From: Clostridia bacterium
GTDB lineage: Bacteria; Bacillota; Clostridia; Oscillospirales; Acutalibacteraceae
DNA length: 42,293 nt
NCBI GenBank assembly: GCA_017396515.1
Contig: JAFQLV010000046.1
Location: 1 to 42,293 of the forward strand
Direction of reading: 5' to 3'
The position numbers and the translations under genes are program-made. This document shows, in pieces, positions 8,563 through 31,703 of the stretch; the stretch's first letter is position 1, and each line of letters opens with the position of its first letter. The notes under the pieces were generated by a model. That model searched no databases and was not told the DNA's origin. It saw only the letters and a program-made list of their open reading frames with translations.

Positions 8563-8632
8563 CCTCGGCGGGAAAAGAGCTGTTTCCTCTCCGATGCTCC
8601 CCCGCGATTGCTAATTGCTAATTACAAATTGT
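8563..8632. repeat. 43-bp repeat plus heptamer arm, copy 2
   Basis: The 43-bp unit (8563-8605) is followed by a clear heptamer arm: GATTGCTAATTGCTAATTAC (8605-8625 region), with unit ATTGCTA. Its left end lies about 30 bp upstream of the start of the gene at 8025-8534, as copy 1 does for its own gene. The arm and unit junction reads GCG-ATT, as in the other elements of this window. Confidence 0.85.
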
Positions 8633-8660
8633 AATAAAGCTGCCGCTTTCGCGACAGCTT
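8630..8660 (-). terminator. Terminator of the P-loop protein gene
   Basis: On the minus strand, AAGCTGTCGC-GAAA-GCGGCAGCTT (8660-8637) is a 10-bp stem with one mismatch and a GAAA tetraloop, followed by TATTACAATTT. It lies 12 bp after the stop of the gene at 8672-9091. Confidence 0.75.
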
Positions 8661-16696: not shown

Positions 16697-17371
16697 ATGG
16701 AAAATGTATTCTCAGGCGAGATTTTAAATATTACACCCTTTAAGAAAGGTTTTGTTTTTGCCACAAAGAGCATAGCTCCCGACGGCAGACTTAAGGCAAA
16801 CTTTTACGGCTACGATGCCGTCAACGATAAATTCACACACATCAAGAAGTCAGTTTATCTTAAAATCAAATTCGGCTATGAATATGAGGAAATCGCAGAG
16901 CAGCTTGGCGATTATGTTTCATGCGATGTGGGCGTGCTCAACGACAACAGAATTATGGCAATTTTCCCCAGCGGAGAATATAATATCTTCAACACCGACG
17001 GTAGCCTCAATGTTTCTTCACTGCTGACATATCACGGTGCCCCCGTTTGTGATATAGCAGTTGACGGCGCTTATGTCTGGTGTGCCGTACCCACAGAAAA
17101 TGCAATTATCAAATATTCTCCCCGTGAGGGCAGAATTCTGCTTCGTGTTGGCGGCGGCGATGCAACAGCCTTTGAAAGCCCCTGTGCAGTTACACTTCAC
17201 GGCAGCACCCTTTACATCTGCAATCAGTCTTCAAAGAAAATCCGCACCCTTAACATTCAGACAAACTCAGTGAGAGACTACCGTGTCTTCAACGAAAGAG
17301 TATACAAATATATCAATGTTATGGGCAGAGAGTTTGTCTGGCTCAAATCGGGACTGTATATCTTAGATTAA
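16697..17371 (+). CDS. Hypothetical protein with beta-propeller-like repeats
   Basis: Not assigned to a named family. The 224-residue protein has no signal peptide or membrane segment. Its pattern of short strands with repeated phrases such as YGYDAVNDKFTHI, VLNDNRIMAIFPSGEYNIFN, VDGAYVWCAVPTENAIIKYS and LHGSTLYICNQSSKKIRTLN resembles NHL/SMP-30-like propeller blades. It starts after GAAAGGAAAGGAAAATTCAA, 56 bp downstream of ricT, and is probably the third gene of the holB-ricT transcript. The TAA stop at 17369-17371 runs directly into the left arm of repeat element B. Confidence 0.8.
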   Translation: MENVFSGEILNITPFKKGFVFATKSIAPDGRLKANFYGYDAVNDKFTHIKKSVYLKIKFGYEYEEIAEQLGDYVSCDVGVLNDNRIMAIFPSGEYNIFNTDGSLNVSSLLTYHGAPVCDIAVDGAYVWCAVPTENAIIKYSPREGRILLRVGGGDATAFESPCAVTLHGSTLYICNQSSKKIRTLNIQTNSVRDYRVFNERVYKYINVMGREFVWLKSGLYILD

Positions 17372-17755
17372 ATGCAAAATGATAAATGCAAAATGCAAAA
17401 TTGTGGTCGCGACTACACCGCTGACTAACCTCAAGCCTCTTTCCGCGGAGTAGAAACTCAGAAACGGTAAGTATCATCAATCTTAAAATAAACAAACGGC
17501 AGGTCACTTCCAAATCGTTAGTAACCTGCCTTATTTATGCCTTCCCCTTGATTTAAGGAAATTCCCCTGTTAGGGGAAATGTCGCGTAAGCGACAAAAGG
17601 GTGCCTGTTCTCGGAGAGAAAAGGTGTCACGCAGTGACGGATGAGGTTTATAATCTGCAGAGTTGGATTTTCATCCCAACTCCCTTTGCGGTTGATAAAT
17701 TGTTTATTGGTAGAAATTTCCCCGCGACCACAATTTTGCATTTTGCATTTTGCAT
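17372..17755. repeat. Heptamer-armed element B (arms ATGCAAA, core 329 bp)
   Basis: The left arm (17372-17402) is a tandem of ATGCAAA-type 7-mers; the right arm (17732-17755) is its reverse complement. The core runs from GTGGTCGCG (17403-17411) to CGCGACCAC (17723-17731), a terminal inverted repeat. Inside are a terminator-like hairpin (17498-17530), a segment AGGTGTCACGCAGTGACGG and an extra stretch with two small palindromes (17562-17578, 17580-17595) absent from element C. The core clearly matches element C at 31404-31667, but the arms do not. Both arms touch stop codons: of the gene before it, and of the lipoprotein gene on the other strand. No transposase is present, so it is MITE-like. 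Confidence 0.85.
17498..17536. terminator. Terminator-like hairpin within element B
   Basis: GGCAGGTCACT (17498-17508) and AGTAACCTGCC (17520-17530) form an 11-bp stem with one mismatch, followed by TTATTTATG on the plus strand. It lies between two convergent genes and has the same stem core as the terminators at 5587 and 31495. Confidence 0.6.
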
Positions 17756-18307
17756 TTAATTCCTGCTTCCCGGCTTGCTTGTCGGCTCAATTTCAGTGAG
17801 ATAAGTGTTGTATATCATCACCTGGCACACAAGGGGCGTGGAATAATAAACGAAGTAAAAGTTATCCTGTTTTTTTGTCAGCTCCCCCTCTTTCAGGAAA
17901 GAGCTCGACTCACCGAGAGAAAACTCACCCATAAGCGCTTCGGCAGAGTACCTGTCATAAAAGCAAAAGGTCTGCAGGGTGTTTTTTAGTATGTATAGAA
18001 AGTTTTTGCTATCCGTAGAAATATTTTTACTTTGCTCACCGTTTTTTGTCAGCTTAGTCATCATCACTCTGCATTCGCATATTTTCCCGTCAGGAGCCTC
18101 TTTGAGAGTCAGAAGAATGTTATCCCTTATCAGCTTGTATTCTCTGCTTTCACCGGGAGCGTAAATAAAATCCGTAAAGGCAATCTCATTTTCAGCCACC
18201 TCGTTATAGTTTTCGATAAAACCGCTTAAATCCATAAACTGACTTTTTGAGCAGGCTGTTAGCGTAATAATCAGAAACAAGCAAAGCGGCAACTTAAAGC
18301 ATCGCAT
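17756..18307 (-). CDS. Predicted lipoprotein, unknown function
   Basis: A 183-residue protein with a type II signal peptide: MRCFKLPLCLFLIITLTACS, lipobox LTAC with lipidation at Cys19. The mature part looks like a small mixed alpha/beta domain (for example NILLTLKEAPDGKICECRVM and KKQDNFYFVYYSTPLVCQVM). No family is recognised. It should be anchored to the outer face of the membrane. The start follows AAAAGGTGATATT. The TAA stop at 17758-17756 lies right at the end of the heptamer arm of element B, so the last residues and stop may have been set by the insertion. Confidence 0.85.
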   Translation of the reverse strand: MRCFKLPLCLFLIITLTACSKSQFMDLSGFIENYNEVAENEIAFTDFIYAPGESREYKLIRDNILLTLKEAPDGKICECRVMMTKLTKNGEQSKNISTDSKNFLYILKNTLQTFCFYDRYSAEALMGEFSLGESSSFLKEGELTKKQDNFYFVYYSTPLVCQVMIYNTYLTEIEPTSKPGSRN

Positions 18308-26970: not shown

Positions 26971-27066
26971 CTGAGCAGACATCACTCTGCTTCTGCGGGT
27001 GAAAACTCACCTCTTCGGCAGAGTACGGCGCAATTCTGCGTTCTGCACTCTGCATTCTGCATTCAA
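26971..27066. repeat. Heptamer-armed half-element D after the malic enzyme gene
   Basis: The arm (27032-27066) is a tandem of TTCTGCA-type 7-mers (units TTCTGCG, TTCTGCA, CTCTGCA, TTCTGCA). Next to it lies CGGCG and a nested hairpin: CTCTGC (26985-26990) pairs with GCAGAG (27018-27023), enclosing GGGTGA (26997-27002) and TCACC (27007-27011). The second arm is missing or has been lost. The arm ends at the malic enzyme stop codon (27069-27067). Confidence 0.65.
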
Positions 27067-28245
27067 TCAGATGCGTGCTACGCCGCTATCTCTTGCTGCC
27101 TGAGCAACTGCTGCTGCAACTGTGGGGCCAACTCTTTCGTCAAATGCTGCAGGAAGAATGTAGTCACTTCTGAGCTCGTCATCACTGATAAGTGAAGCAA
27201 TAGCCTTAGCTGCTGCCATCTTCATTTCTTCGTTGATGTCACTTGCTCTTACATCAAGAGTACCGCGGAAAATGCCGGGGAATGCAAGAACATTGTTGAT
27301 CTGGTTGGGGAAGTCGCTACGGCCTGTACCGACAACAAGAGCACCTGCTGCAAGAGCTTCGTCGGGCATAATTTCGGGAACGGGGTTAGCCATGGGGAAT
27401 ACGATGGGATCCTTAGCCATTGAGCGAACCATATCCTGAGTTACGCAGCCGGGAGCTGAAACACCGATGAAAATGTCAGCGCCAACGAGAGCATCAGCAA
27501 GTGAGCCTGTTTTGCCTGACTTGTTTGAGAAGGAAGCGAGCTCCATCTTTGCAGGGTCATTTTCAATGCCTTCTCTGCCCTTGTGTACTACGCCCTTACG
27601 GTCGCACATAATAACATCCTTAATGCCCATAGCAATAAAGAGCTTTGCAATAGCAACACCTGCTGCACCTGCACCGTTGAATACAGCGGTGCAATCCTCA
27701 ATCTTTTTGCCTGAAAGCTTAAGAGCATTGATAAGAGCAGCGGAGCAAACAACTGCTGTGCCGTGCTGGTCATCGTGGAAAATGGGGATATCTGTCTTTT
27801 CCTTGAGCTTTCTTTCGATTTCAAAGCAACGGGGTGCACCGATATCTTCCAGGTTAACACCACCGAAGGAGCCTGAGATGAGAGCTACAGTGTCAACAAT
27901 TGTGTCAACATCCTTTGACTTGATGCAAAGGGGAACTGCATCAACATCACCGAATTCCTTGAAAAGAACACACTTACCTTCCATAACGGGCATACCTGCC
28001 TCAGGACCTATGTCACCAAGGCCGAGAACTGCAGTACCGTCTGTTACAACTGCGATTGTGTTCCATCTTCTTGTAAGCTCATATGACTTGTTTATGTCCT
28101 TCTGAATTTCAAGACAGGGCTGAGCAACACCGGGTGTGTAAGCAAGTGAAAGTGCTTCCTTATCCTTAACTGCTACTCTTGATACAACTTCAACCTTGCC
28201 CTTCCATTCGCCGTGAAGTCTTAATGATTCTTTTGCGTAATCCAT
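27067..28245 (-). CDS. NAD(P)-dependent malic enzyme
   Basis: Oxidatively decarboxylates malate to pyruvate and CO2. The 392-residue protein matches the short prokaryotic form without a phosphotransacetylase domain. Motifs: SLAYTPGVAQPC, LGLGDIGPEAGMPVMEGKCV, FKEFGDVDAVPLCI with the catalytic Lys region, LEDIGAPRCFEIE (metal ligands), HDDQHGTAVV, and the Rossmann motif FNGAGAAGVAIAKL. I set the start at ATG 28245 (MDYAKESLRLHG) because AAAGGTGA lies 5 nt upstream; a GTG three codons earlier overlaps that site. It lies downstream of the hairpin array and of the Ldh-family gene. The stop abuts a heptamer arm. Confidence 0.94.
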   Translation of the reverse strand: MDYAKESLRLHGEWKGKVEVVSRVAVKDKEALSLAYTPGVAQPCLEIQKDINKSYELTRRWNTIAVVTDGTAVLGLGDIGPEAGMPVMEGKCVLFKEFGDVDAVPLCIKSKDVDTIVDTVALISGSFGGVNLEDIGAPRCFEIERKLKEKTDIPIFHDDQHGTAVVCSAALINALKLSGKKIEDCTAVFNGAGAAGVAIAKLFIAMGIKDVIMCDRKGVVHKGREGIENDPAKMELASFSNKSGKTGSLADALVGADIFIGVSAPGCVTQDMVRSMAKDPIVFPMANPVPEIMPDEALAAGALVVGTGRSDFPNQINNVLAFPGIFRGTLDVRASDINEEMKMAAAKAIASLISDDELRSDYILPAAFDERVGPTVAAAVAQAARDSGVARI

Positions 28246-28272
28246 TTTTATCACCTTTTTAATTTATTTTCT

Positions 28273-28472
28273 TGCACCGAATGTGCATATCGGAGCCGTC
28301 AGGCATATCGAGTGTGTAACACATATCGAGCCGTCAGGCATATCGACAAGTTAAACACCGGACTAAATATCGATATGTTGCCTTGCGGCAACTCGATATA
28401 TTTGTCTGAAGACAAATTCGATATGTTTGCTAACAGCAAACTCGATATGTTTTACTTAATAAAACGAGATAT
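28273..28472. repeat. Array of eight hairpins joined by the linker TCGATATG / CATATCGA
   Basis: In the left half CATATCG(G/A) starts at 28286, 28304, 28322 and 28339 (period 17-18). The hairpins before them are TGCAC/GTGCA, GCC/GGC, TGTG/CACA and GCC/GGC. In the right half TCGATATG, the reverse complement, starts at 28370, 28393 (ending A), 28418 and 28442, with a degenerate copy at 28466 (period 23-25). The hairpins are GTTGCC/GGCAAC, ATTTGTCT/AGACAAAT, GTTTGCT/AGCAAAC and GTTTTA/TAAAAC. Stems differ in sequence but each is self-complementary. The array fills the space between two same-strand genes and ends 6 bp from the stop of the upstream one. Confidence 0.9.
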
Positions 28473-28478
28473 TCTACA

Positions 28479-29585
28479 TTATTCCCAGGGGAATTTATAA
28501 TCAAGACCGAGGTCATCACGAACCTTGTTCATTTCAGCCTGAACTGATTCGTTTATAGGCACACCGCTGTCTTTTCTCTGAAGCCAGATTTCATATTCCT
28601 TTTCGCCTGCGGTGTAAATTCTCTCCTCACCGGGAGCCTTCTTTGATGCACGCATTGAACGAAGAATGTCACCAGCCTTTTTACGGCAGATTTCTTCACC
28701 CATAAAGTGGTCTGTATCAATAGCGATGAAGAAGTGACCGAGGTGATAGGGACGGATATTGCCGTTTTCGTCCTTACCGTCAAGATCCTTACCGTAGGAG
28801 CCGTCCTGAAGAACTGATGAAAGGAACTCAACAAACAGAGCAAAGCCGTAACCCTTATAGCCGCCGAGAGCTTCGCCGATACCGCCGAGAGTTGCAAGAG
28901 CTGCTGTGCCGTTTCTGATCTTCTTAAGAGCTACACCGGCATCACCTTCAACGGGATTACCGTCTGTGTCGATAATTGTGCCGGGATGAACATCTTCACC
29001 GATTCTCTCATAATATTCAACCTTACCGTTCTGTGTAAATGATGTTGCACAGTCAAAGTTGAAGTCAAAGTCTTCATCAGTGGGAACACCGAGTGTGAAG
29101 GGGTTTGTACCGAACATACCCTCAACACCGAGAGTGGGAGCAACGCTGGGGCGTGCATTTGTACCTGTCATACCGATACAGCCTGCCTTGGTTGCCATTG
29201 TGGTGTAATAGCCTGCAATACCGTAGTGGCAGGAGTTACGCACAACAACCATACCCATACCGTACTTCTTAGCCTTTTCAATAGCCATAGTCATAGCCTT
29301 GTGGCCGATAACCTGACCCATACCGTTGTGGCCGTCAACAACTGCTGTTGTTTCGGTTTCCTTAATGATTTCGAAGTTTGTTACGGGCTGCTGAATGCCT
29401 GCATTGATACGGTCGATGTAAACGGGCTTGAAGCGGTTGCAGCCGTGTGACTCAATACCTCTTCTGTCTGATTCAAGAAGTACATCAGTTACGATTTCTG
29501 CATCGTCAGCAGGTACACCTACACCGATGAATGCATCCTTGATAAAATCGTGTGTGGTTTTCCAATCAAGAATTACTTTAGCCAT
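28479..29585 (-). CDS. Ldh2/malate dehydrogenase family oxidoreductase
   Basis: A 368-residue NAD(P)-dependent dehydrogenase of the malate/L-lactate/ureidoglycolate (Ldh2, type 2) family, which oxidises 2-hydroxy acids and is unrelated to classical malate dehydrogenase. Motifs: ESDRRGIESHGCNRF with His47, VVDGHNGMGQVIGHKAM, VVRNSCHYGIAGYY with the catalytic His120, GTNPFTLGVPT, and GYKGYGFALFVEFLSSVL. It lies upstream of malic enzyme on the same strand, so a malate-related role (oxaloacetate-malate-pyruvate) is an attractive inference. TATAGGAGTGAAATTAAAAA precedes the start. The hairpin array follows the stop. Confidence 0.92.
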   Translation of the reverse strand: MAKVILDWKTTHDFIKDAFIGVGVPADDAEIVTDVLLESDRRGIESHGCNRFKPVYIDRINAGIQQPVTNFEIIKETETTAVVDGHNGMGQVIGHKAMTMAIEKAKKYGMGMVVVRNSCHYGIAGYYTTMATKAGCIGMTGTNARPSVAPTLGVEGMFGTNPFTLGVPTDEDFDFNFDCATSFTQNGKVEYYERIGEDVHPGTIIDTDGNPVEGDAGVALKKIRNGTAALATLGGIGEALGGYKGYGFALFVEFLSSVLQDGSYGKDLDGKDENGNIRPYHLGHFFIAIDTDHFMGEEICRKKAGDILRSMRASKKAPGEERIYTAGEKEYEIWLQRKDSGVPINESVQAEMNKVRDDLGLDYKFPWE

Positions 29586-31371: not shown

Positions 31372-31703
31372 AGTTAGGAATTAGGAGTGAGGAGTTAGGA
31401 GTTGTGGTCGCGACTTTATCGCCCACTAACCGTAAGTCTCTTTCCGCGGAGATGAAGCTCAGAGGCGGTAAGTTTAATCAATCTTAAATTAAACGGCAGG
31501 TCACTACTGAAAATTTGTAGTGACCTGCCTTATTTGTGCCTTCCCCTTGCCTAAGGGGAAGGTGTCACGCAGTGACGGATGAGGTTTATAATCTACAGAC
31601 TCCCATCTCATCCCAACTCCCTTTGCGGGAAAAGATTGTTTATTGGCAGAAATGTACCCGCGACCACAACTTCTAACTCCTCACCCCTCACTCCTAACTT
31701 CTT
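31372..31703. repeat. Heptamer-armed element C (arms TTAGGAG, core 264 bp)
   Basis: The left arm (31372-31403) is a tandem of TAGGAGT/GAGGAGT-type 7-mers; the right arm (31668-31703) is the reverse complement type (CTAACTCCTCAC...). The core runs from GTGGTCGCG (31404-31412) to CGCGACCAC (31659-31667). It matches element B over most of its length, including TCCGCGGAG, the GCAGGTCACT hairpin, CCTTCCCCTTG, GGTGTCACGCAGTGACGGATGAGG-type sequence and CATCCCAACTCCCTTTGCGG, but lacks the ~65-bp extra stretch of B. The right arm stops about 3 bp from the spo0A stop codon. No coding content. Confidence 0.88.
31495..31536. terminator. Terminator-like hairpin within element C
   Basis: GGCAGGTCACTAC (31495-31507) and GTAGTGACCTGCC (31517-31529) form a perfect 13-bp stem, followed by TTATTTGTG on the plus strand; on the minus strand GTTTAATTTAAG follows. 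It lies downstream of spo0A and could end its transcript. The stem core is the same as at 5587-5614. Confidence 0.65.

Follow-up and report, generated by a model that had tools for sequence, protein, structure and literature searches.

A hairpin array in a Clostridia genome as a probable non-autonomous copy of an element with heptamer arms

Why does the gap between two genes of a Clostridia bacterium hold eight small hairpins, strung on a constant short linker in two opposed halves? The window analyzed here, a stretch of 42,293 nt (contig C19), belongs to a 1.88-Mb draft genome (G000) of 89 contigs that is 72% complete, and the array lies in it between a malic enzyme-like gene and a gene of the malate/lactate/sulfolactate dehydrogenase family (Table 1). 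We conclude that the array is an insertion and, probably, a non-autonomous copy of a TCGATAT-type element whose arms would be read by an oligomer of the protein that such elements encode, the "intervening sequence protein" (IVP).

The element and its place in the window

Each arm of the element holds four linkers and four hairpins, one of the eight linkers being altered. The two opposed halves described in the original prediction, with periods of 17-18 bp on the left and 23-25 bp on the right, are present as described. The constant 8-bp linker that it proposed proved constant, but not of that length: the word is 7 nt long (TCGATAT, or ATATCGA on the other strand), the eighth base being part of the closing pair of a hairpin, and one copy in the window is altered to ATATCGG. 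Likewise, eight hairpins are indeed there, but they are not all different, GCCGTCAGGC occurring twice, and they are not all perfect small hairpins, the outermost left one having merely 4 bp. The array was rightly held not to be CRISPR-like: its constant part is 7 nt and its variable parts are palindromes, whereas in a CRISPR array the repeats measure upward of about 20 nt and the spacers lack structure. An Rfam search of the window matched no family.

Table 1. Coordinates of the element, its parts and the flanking genes within the window
Feature	Position	Strand	Remarks
Whole element	28274..28468	.	195 bp; two opposed arms of 7-nt linkers and hairpins, 23-bp centre; IVP gene absent; basis: sequence, and absence at 21/21 readable orthologous places
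Left arm outer hairpin, 4 bp	28274..28286	-	
Left-arm linker with one change (ATATCGG on +)	28287..28293	-	
Hairpin GCCGTCAGGC, copy 1 of two identical	28295..28304	-	
Linker TCGATAT (read on -)	28305..28311	-	
Hairpin GTGTGTAACAC	28312..28322	-	
Linker TCGATAT (read on -)	28323..28329	-	
Hairpin GCCGTCAGGC, copy 2 of two identical	28330..28339	-	
Linker TCGATAT (read on -)	28340..28346	-	
Centre, 23 bp, gene-free	28347..28369	.	
Linker TCGATAT	28370..28376	+	
Hairpin GTTGCCTTGCGGCAAC	28377..28392	+	
Linker TCGATAT	28393..28399	+	
Hairpin ATTTGTCTGAAGACAAAT	28400..28417	+	
Linker TCGATAT	28418..28424	+	
Hairpin GTTTGCTAACAGCAAAC	28425..28441	+	
Linker TCGATAT	28442..28448	+	
Right arm outer hairpin GTTTTACTTAATAAAAC	28449..28465	+	
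Terminal GAG, read as partial fifth heptamer	28466..28468	+	right arm only
Flanking malic enzyme-like gene	27067..28254	-	scores under NCBIfam cut-offs
Flanking malate/lactate/sulfolactate dehydrogenase family gene	28479..29585	-	scores under NCBIfam cut-offs

The dehydrogenase gene is present in 31 of the 34 genomes sampled from the genus (own included). Loci from 29 relatives were compared, and 21 of them were readable as far as the malic enzyme gene. The array is absent from all 21 of these orthologous gaps, 19 of which measure 20-90 bp, compared with 233 bp in the window. In G030, the gap consists of 257 bp of other sequence, and in G033 (L341) it is 142 bp long and starts with a plain heptamer repeat of another word, CAATGCA, which seems to have inserted independently at the equivalent site. 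The window array is an insertion. In several relatives that lack the window element (L338, L340, L342, and L346-L349), a single simple hairpin was seen by eye in this gap; its sequence varies, and it is probably a conventional terminator or attenuator.

Folded as a single strand, the element reaches a z score of -7.6 as DNA and -5.6 as RNA, equalled in neither case by any of 200 dinucleotide shuffles; in the predicted fold, some left linkers pair with right linkers and the hairpins are kept as well.

TCGATAT arrays, IVP genes, and their heptamer arms

The pattern recurs well beyond the window. In the host genome, the two-linker pattern TCGATATN{6,24}TCGATAT yields 36 matches (one of them across the window centre) compared with 1 for the reversed pattern, and CTCGATATG yields 40 compared with 6; by eye, arrays account for 22 of these 40 (three of them in the window), the other 18 being isolated. 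Matches to the two-linker pattern occur in 40 of 59 genomes (own included), many of them by chance; among the matches listed, which leave out 18 of G045 and most of the 11 of G054, clear arrays are found in four other genomes of the genus (G001, G006, G009, and G024) and in one of another family (G055), so that the array is no oddity of one locus or strain; the original prediction had named absence from every other locus and strain as its refutation, and the arrays found elsewhere go against that outcome. A search of 84,980 species genomes with the three-linker pattern found hairpin arrays in at least 42 loci (42 of the 80 listed), those 42 all in Clostridia; the other 38 listed loci, 10 in Clostridia and 28 elsewhere or unclassified, do not qualify as arrays, and many are simple repeats.

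The anatomy of these arrays is regular. Among 115 distinct TCGATAT arrays with at least two hairpin units, the number of exact linkers is four in 81, three in 33, and five in 1. A fourth hairpin directly follows the fourth linker in 67 of 79 distinct four-linker arrays, and after it comes GA in 48 of the 67 and GAG in 39. The usual arm thus comprises four linkers, four hairpins, and GAG. In the named loci, adjacent opposed pairs have the arm order '+-' 13 times and '-+' once, the window and G055 being '-+'; in G055, three loci (L110, L112, and L113) are window-like elements with short centres. In the '+-' order (L206, L213, L186, and others), an extra stem of ~8-11 bp encloses, by eye, the second arm, and this order with its enclosing stem is a second architecture. 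The two arm orders, together with elements that have both arms on one side of the gene, fall outside the IVP model set out below and are counted against it. In a further locus, L109, TCGATAT arms surround a centre of ~450 bp, similar in length to the IVP-bearing ones, in which a PF05635 search gave no match.

The hairpins vary in sequence and mostly stay paired. Of 364 distinct units between TCGATAT linkers, a set that comprises all loci collected to that point, chance matches included, 61% pair over at least 4 bp from the outside, compared with 5.2% when halves are swapped between units. The proposal that structure is kept and the linker read by sequence was right in direction. Of 52 units in the host genome, 12 have mismatches and the other 40 pair throughout; some copies therefore decay. 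Divergence of stems without compensation, which was to have spoken against selection on structure, accordingly has a divided outcome, since some units carry paired changes (GTTTGC..GCAAAC versus GCTTGC..GCAAGC) and most are fully paired, but the mismatched ones are not compensated. Paralogous arrays of the host genome differ by gain, loss, or exchange of whole units, and given this shuffling and the paired changes, the suggested "structure-copying" process is not needed for most copies. Stems within an array are all different in 20 of 20 host-genome arrays, compared with 12.7 in shuffles (0 of 2000 as high), a comparison confounded by shared descent, and in 16 of 16 arrays of G055, compared with 15.5, which is not significant. 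A rule that the hairpins of one array must differ was rejected, as the window itself repeats one.

TCGATAT arms surround a gene of the PF05635/TIGR02436 family in two host families, at L111 (G055) and L118 (G006), the gene in L118 having 119 codons. The family is named "four helix bundle protein" and comprises the IVP of 23S rRNA intervening sequences. PF05635 was detected in 47 of the 59 genomes (own included), in up to nine copies each, and in none of 14 control genomes. No IVP gene lies between or beside the window arms; the four PF05635 matches of the host genome are on contigs C7, C18, C37, and C51, and none is on C19. Since the window element lacks an IVP gene and the same arms hold one in L111 and L118, we call it non-autonomous. 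The four host IVP genes have other heptamers, and no TCGATAT-type IVP was seen in this genome, which is 72% complete.

To characterize the arms of IVP genes in general, we studied the flanks of 87 of 155 PF05635 matches, a chosen rather than random set of 59 loci fetched by place, 26 of 30 best-match loci, and the two TCGATAT loci, with four best-match loci near contig ends and one locus with two genes left out; stretches of 29 dehydrogenase loci, mostly coding, served as controls. Period 7 was strong, with 19 or more matches out of 21, in 34 of 173 IVP flanks of 350 nt and in 1 of 299 control stretches, and no other period from 4 to 13 reached the threshold in either set. Gaps of exactly 7 nt between successive hairpins numbered 46 in 67,849 bases, compared with 4 in 107,600 control bases. 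Automatic labelling of the 87 loci gave 50 tandem, 29 heptamer-hairpin, and 8 neither, that is, 7-nt arms in 79 of 87, whereas the tandem criterion picked out 1 and the hairpin criterion 0 of 108 control windows. The single tandem-positive control has the word ATTGTGC, to which the GCACAAT repeat of L341 is complementary, and it is therefore probably the L341 insert. By linker length, 29 loci were counted at 7 nt and 1, 1, and 0 at 6, 8, and 10; we take the 24 and 20 loci at lengths 5 and 9 to be these same hairpins counted with a closing pair added or removed. An earlier exact-word test for heptamers had given a score of 2 or more in 15 of 26 loci, compared with 3 of 26 in the outer control and 5% in shuffles.

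The arms also share a size and an orientation. Tandem Repeats Finder detected 106 period-7 arrays with a median of 4.6 copies, 60 of which measure 30-34 nt (mode 32), whatever the heptamer, and of the 35 IVP loci with arrays on both sides of the gene, 34 have them in inverted orientation, allowing 1 mismatch. Some elements have both arms on one side of the IVP gene. In the ATAACAC/ATATAAC subclade (L276, L306, L315, L318, and L322), hairpin arms are seen upstream of the gene and none downstream within 369-400 nt.

The link suggested between the array and the "heptamer arms" elsewhere in the window points the right way: the linker, too, is a heptamer, and genes of one protein family are flanked by arms of either kind. 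The window contains seven period-7 runs, none of period 5, 6, 8, or 9, and one of period 10. Tandem heptamer arms form inverted pairs at 679-712 with 913-935 (centre of ~200 bp), 17370-17401 with 17729-17761 (~330 bp), and 31372-31404 with 31668-31695 (~260 bp); PF05635 has no match in these three centres, and the pairs are plain-type gene-less elements. For two further period-7 arrays, at 8607-8634 and 27033-27065, no inverted partner within 1.5 kb is convincing.

A tree of 84 IVPs (104 columns; L291, L293, and L304 dropped for stops) groups proteins from mixed host lineages. Arm type changes once on this tree, compared with a mean of ~24 changes after shuffling (0 of 500 as low), a count that leaves seven unlabelled rows aside and takes L282 as hairpin/ACTTCAC after relabelling by eye, and the branch dividing the two types has weak support (54). 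When 30 hairpin-type rows, L282 among them, were each compared with the nearest IVP of another host family, allowing rotations and both strands and counting reciprocal pairs twice, heptamers differed by 0.93 positions on average compared with 2.24 in shuffles (0 of 2000), and were within one mismatch in 22 of 30 rows compared with 5.4 expected; by the same measure, the 46 tandem rows gave 1.89 compared with 2.66 (0 of 2000). For instance, ATAACAC is common to G000, G033, and G051, with one-base variants in G058 and G053; ACTTCAC is found in G006 (by eye) and G045, and ATGATAT in G033 and G050; GCGATAT/ACGATAT, in G006, G038, and G051, is near TCGATAT both as a word and in the tree. As judged from these sequence comparisons, heptamer sequence goes with the kinship of the IVPs even where their hosts belong to different families.

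Outside this order, searching the proteins of 72,556 plasmids gave 25 IVP records from five phyla (Cyanobacteriota, Chloroflexota, Bacteroidota, Spirochaetota, and Bacillota), near-copies included (L368, L370, and L371; L380, L381, and L383). Period-7 arrays flank the IVP gene in 24 of the 25, on both sides in all 24, and the arms are inverted, within 1 mismatch, in 21 of 24; the strict period-7 test is passed by 18 of 25 records and other periods from 4 to 13 by none, counts that stand without a separate plasmid control. Of 69 plasmid period-7 arrays, 23 measure 30-34 nt and 11 exceed 60 nt. The fixed arm size is thus confined to this order, which counts against the model. Plasmid arms (flanks of L366-L390) reach ~39 copies, in contrast to the fixed arms of Clostridia, and the exceptional record, L382, has, by eye, TTCGCAAT-like words with a longer palindrome between them.

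Filled and empty sites and a model of the IVP element

Several sites are occupied by an IVP element in some replicons and empty in others. In three related Nostoc plasmids (L368, L370, and L371), an element lies inside a DNA cytosine methyltransferase gene that is whole in three others (L391-L393). Homology stops ~5 nt left of the first heptamer and resumes ~328 bp further along the target, so that 466 bp of new sequence is inserted and ~328 bp of target is missing; target DNA has therefore been lost or replaced. The heptamer of the inserted element, CAATTCG, occurs within ~10 nt of the left junction in all three uninterrupted genes. An element separates cas2 from cas1 in two plasmids (one of them L376), and the two genes adjoin in two others (L394 and L395); in one of these empty sites (L394), TACTTC is found at the junction, and in the other it is not. 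The target may be chosen by the heptamer, or it may itself seed the heptamer. A third site, within the genus of the host, is the tpiA-gpmI gap, where G006, G005, and G002 have a complete IVP element (626-658 bp). The gap is 31-90 bp in ten other readable loci, 12 of the 30 loci falling outside the count; other heptamer-like sequence was seen there by eye in G014 (91 bp), G017 (278 bp), and G021 (360 bp), and the gap measures 143 bp in G031 and 122 bp in G012. Used as a query, the tpiA-gpmI element gives 24 matches in G000, 26 in G002, and 24 in G006, many of them 35-50 bp long and covering arms alone; gene-less copies are therefore common. No target-site duplication was recognized by eye at the filled and empty sites, where the element boundaries are uncertain. 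Taken together, and on the evidence of sequence alignments, filled and empty sites indicate that IVP elements are mobile.

These sites bear most directly on the alternative that survives best, namely a regulatory role without mobility, in which IVP would act as a repressor or an RNA-binding regulator and the arms would serve as its operators or attenuators, scattered near genes. Such a role would suit arms that adjoin the IVP gene, often lie between genes, and carry a heptamer that follows the IVP subfamily. We nevertheless consider it unlikely, because whole IVP genes are present or absent at the methyltransferase gene, the cas2-cas1 gap, and the tpiA-gpmI gap, and gene-less copies occur at unrelated sites.

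From the association of arms with IVP genes and from the presence and absence of elements, we infer how binding, movement in trans, and the underlying chemistry might work. A gene-bearing element consists of a gene for a small four-helix-bundle protein and inverted arms, usually one on each side. In this order, an arm typically has four heptamers and about four more nucleotides; in one part of the IVP tree a variable hairpin separates successive heptamers, and elsewhere the heptamers are directly tandem. With the hairpins folded, both kinds of arm would present an equal heptamer string of ~31-32 nt (4 x 7 + about 3-4). An IVP pentamer would bind the arm as a folded single strand, DNA or RNA, with one subunit per heptamer block, the hairpins being looped-out spacers that vanish on folding, and IVP could move gene-less copies in trans. 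Binding of this kind would explain why linkers are conserved, why stems vary yet stay paired, and how gene-less copies may be moved in trans. Because hairpins would vanish on folding, the linker reader most likely meets a folded single strand, and this is the main structural argument. The solved relatives matched in the PDB, 2rld and 2gsc, have five chains each, and PMC4990558 describes the Xanthomonas protein as a homopentamer whose subunits are four-helix bundles. With four and a half heptamers, an arm would present about five blocks to five subunits.

What would perform the cutting and joining is the weakest step. Reverse transcriptase (PF00078) was found in 13 of the 59 genomes and Y1 transposase (PF01797) in 33. 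Neither was found in G033, G050, and G038, which carry 8, 7, and 4 IVP genes and are each 98% complete, and reverse transcriptase was not found in G019 (9 IVP genes, 97% complete), negatives that were obtained on draft genomes with family profiles, by which very divergent reverse transcriptases would be missed. Neither enzyme therefore seems to be required, and IVP itself, or IVP together with host replication and repair, probably does the cutting and joining; alone or with that help, it may move the element as a single strand.

The same counts weigh on two further alternatives. In a retroelement-like scheme, IVP would act like the Avd protein of diversity-generating retroelements and a reverse transcriptase would copy a structured RNA. 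Avd and PF05635 are alike in sequence and structure according to the part of PMC10053308 available, the arms fold strongly as RNA, and target duplication was not recognized; the scheme is improbable, however, with PF00078 in just 13 of 59 genomes and not found in the four IVP-rich ones named above. Slightly less probable still is a REPIN-like or IS200/IS605-like single-strand element whose hairpins are read by a Y1 (HUH) transposase. In its favour are the opposed hairpins at the two ends, the numerous copies that lack a gene, and the location between genes, but a Y1 transposase is found in just 33 of 59 genomes and in neither the host genome, 72% complete, nor G033, G050, or G038, the conserved part is the 7-nt linker rather than the hairpin, and the gene between the arms is IVP in L111 and L118.

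A folded RNA between the "ldh-like" and malic enzyme genes had been offered in the original prediction as a possible role, and it could act locally on these two genes, as a processing site or terminator; the array does fold strongly between two same-strand genes; we reject this very improbable role because the orthologous loci lack the array (0 of 21 readable places, 19 of them merely 20-90 bp), which recurs at unrelated sites of the genome. Least credible of all is growth of the heptamers by polymerase slippage, with IVP genes beside them by accident: some bacterial genomes are rich in heptamer repeats (PMC4692102 and PMC4679880) and the very long plasmid arrays look like slippage growth, but the association at 79 of 87 and 24 of 25 loci, the inverted arms, the one preferred length in this order, and a heptamer that follows the subfamily speak against it.

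IVP elements with heptamer arms are apparently a widespread, unrecognized class of bacterial mobile elements. That this class is a general one, in which a pentameric four-helix-bundle protein reads about five heptamer blocks along a folded single strand, we put forward tentatively, as the less probable part of our interpretation; on that reading, the window would hold its most elaborate form, read in the same way, with each gap between blocks filled by a freely varying hairpin. The class would need no known recombinase to move, and it might do so at targets in which a heptamer-like word is already present.

Relation to known repeats and mobile elements

The window element resembles miniature inverted-repeat elements (MITEs), which are also short, intergenic, and numerous, with inverted ends common to a gene-bearing relative; the 36 two-linker matches and the opposed arms in the window and G055 conform to this description. 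Unlike in a MITE, the window ends are not one conserved inverted repeat, the 7-nt linkers being constant and the stems variable, no known transposase is involved, the gene of the related elements being IVP, and target duplication was not recognized. With the IVP heptamer-arm class the window element shares inverted arms of one 7-nt word and four heptamers plus a short remainder in each arm, and it lacks the IVP gene.

REPIN/RAYT systems consist of opposed hairpin units spread through the genome that depend on one protein in trans; their palindrome is conserved and the protein is an HUH enzyme. The elements described here are like them in having opposed hairpin units through the genome and, as proposed, one protein in trans; they differ in keeping the linker constant and in having a four-helix bundle as their protein. 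A Y1 (HUH) transposase search gave 0 matches in the host genome (72% complete), G033, G050, and G038.

Heptamer repeats themselves have been described repeatedly. The cyanobacterial STRR are one such family, tandem 7-mers between genes, and the Planktothrix plasmid arms include AATCCCC, which resembles the STRR word. In the available parts of the reports concerned, GGGAATC heptamers form 70 and 75 opposed close pairs in two Xanthomonas genomes and are generally not found with mobile elements, the Nostoc GGGGA(C/T)T repeats are similar with few opposed pairs (PMC4692102), and TAACTGA of Beggiatoaceae occurs mostly as direct repeats (PMC4679880). These families are likewise tandem 7-mers between genes, but those parts name no link to IVP, whereas here the heptamers flank IVP genes and, in one lineage, have hairpins between them. 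The class proposed above could be the source of a good share of the unexplained bacterial heptamer repeats, with GGGAATC, GGGGATT, and TAACTGA as candidates.

The IVP protein is already known; the new part is the element class. In the sections of PMC4990558 available, the 23S rRNA intervening sequence (IVS) is called selfish, S23/IVP is said to have no known function, and the S23 gene of one IVS is preceded by two or three GACAGAT heptamers and a degenerate one, heptamers being reported there at that single IVS. The likeness thus extends to the same protein family, complementary ends, and tandem heptamers before the gene (PMC4990558). The difference is that an IVS lies inside the 23S rRNA gene and is cut out by RNase III (PMC4990558), whereas the window element is gene-less, has hairpins between its heptamers, and lies between protein genes; with no Rfam match in the window and two protein genes flanking the element, a location inside a 23S rRNA gene does not apply. 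The Avd protein of diversity-generating retroelements is similar to PF05635 in the available part of PMC10053308, and differs in its system, as many IVP-bearing genomes have no detected reverse transcriptase domain. Our search of open-licence full texts, in the parts available, found nothing that links IVP genes in general to heptamer arms.

The counts, the controls, and the tree therefore connect two subjects, the IVP/S23 proteins, which have solved structures and no known function according to the part of PMC4990558 available, and the unexplained heptamer repeats of bacteria. The IVP model predicts that each IVP will bind the heptamer of its own arms. As to mechanism, the hairpin arms give the best indication, since they make most sense if read as a single strand after fold-out, and if IVP moves the element without a known recombinase, this would be a new way of moving DNA. 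On plasmids, IVP genes were also seen among defence genes (L376, L379, L381, L383, L384, and L386), in settings that include the cas2-cas1 gap, a place beside cas1, places beside DISARM or BREX genes, and a place between restriction genes.
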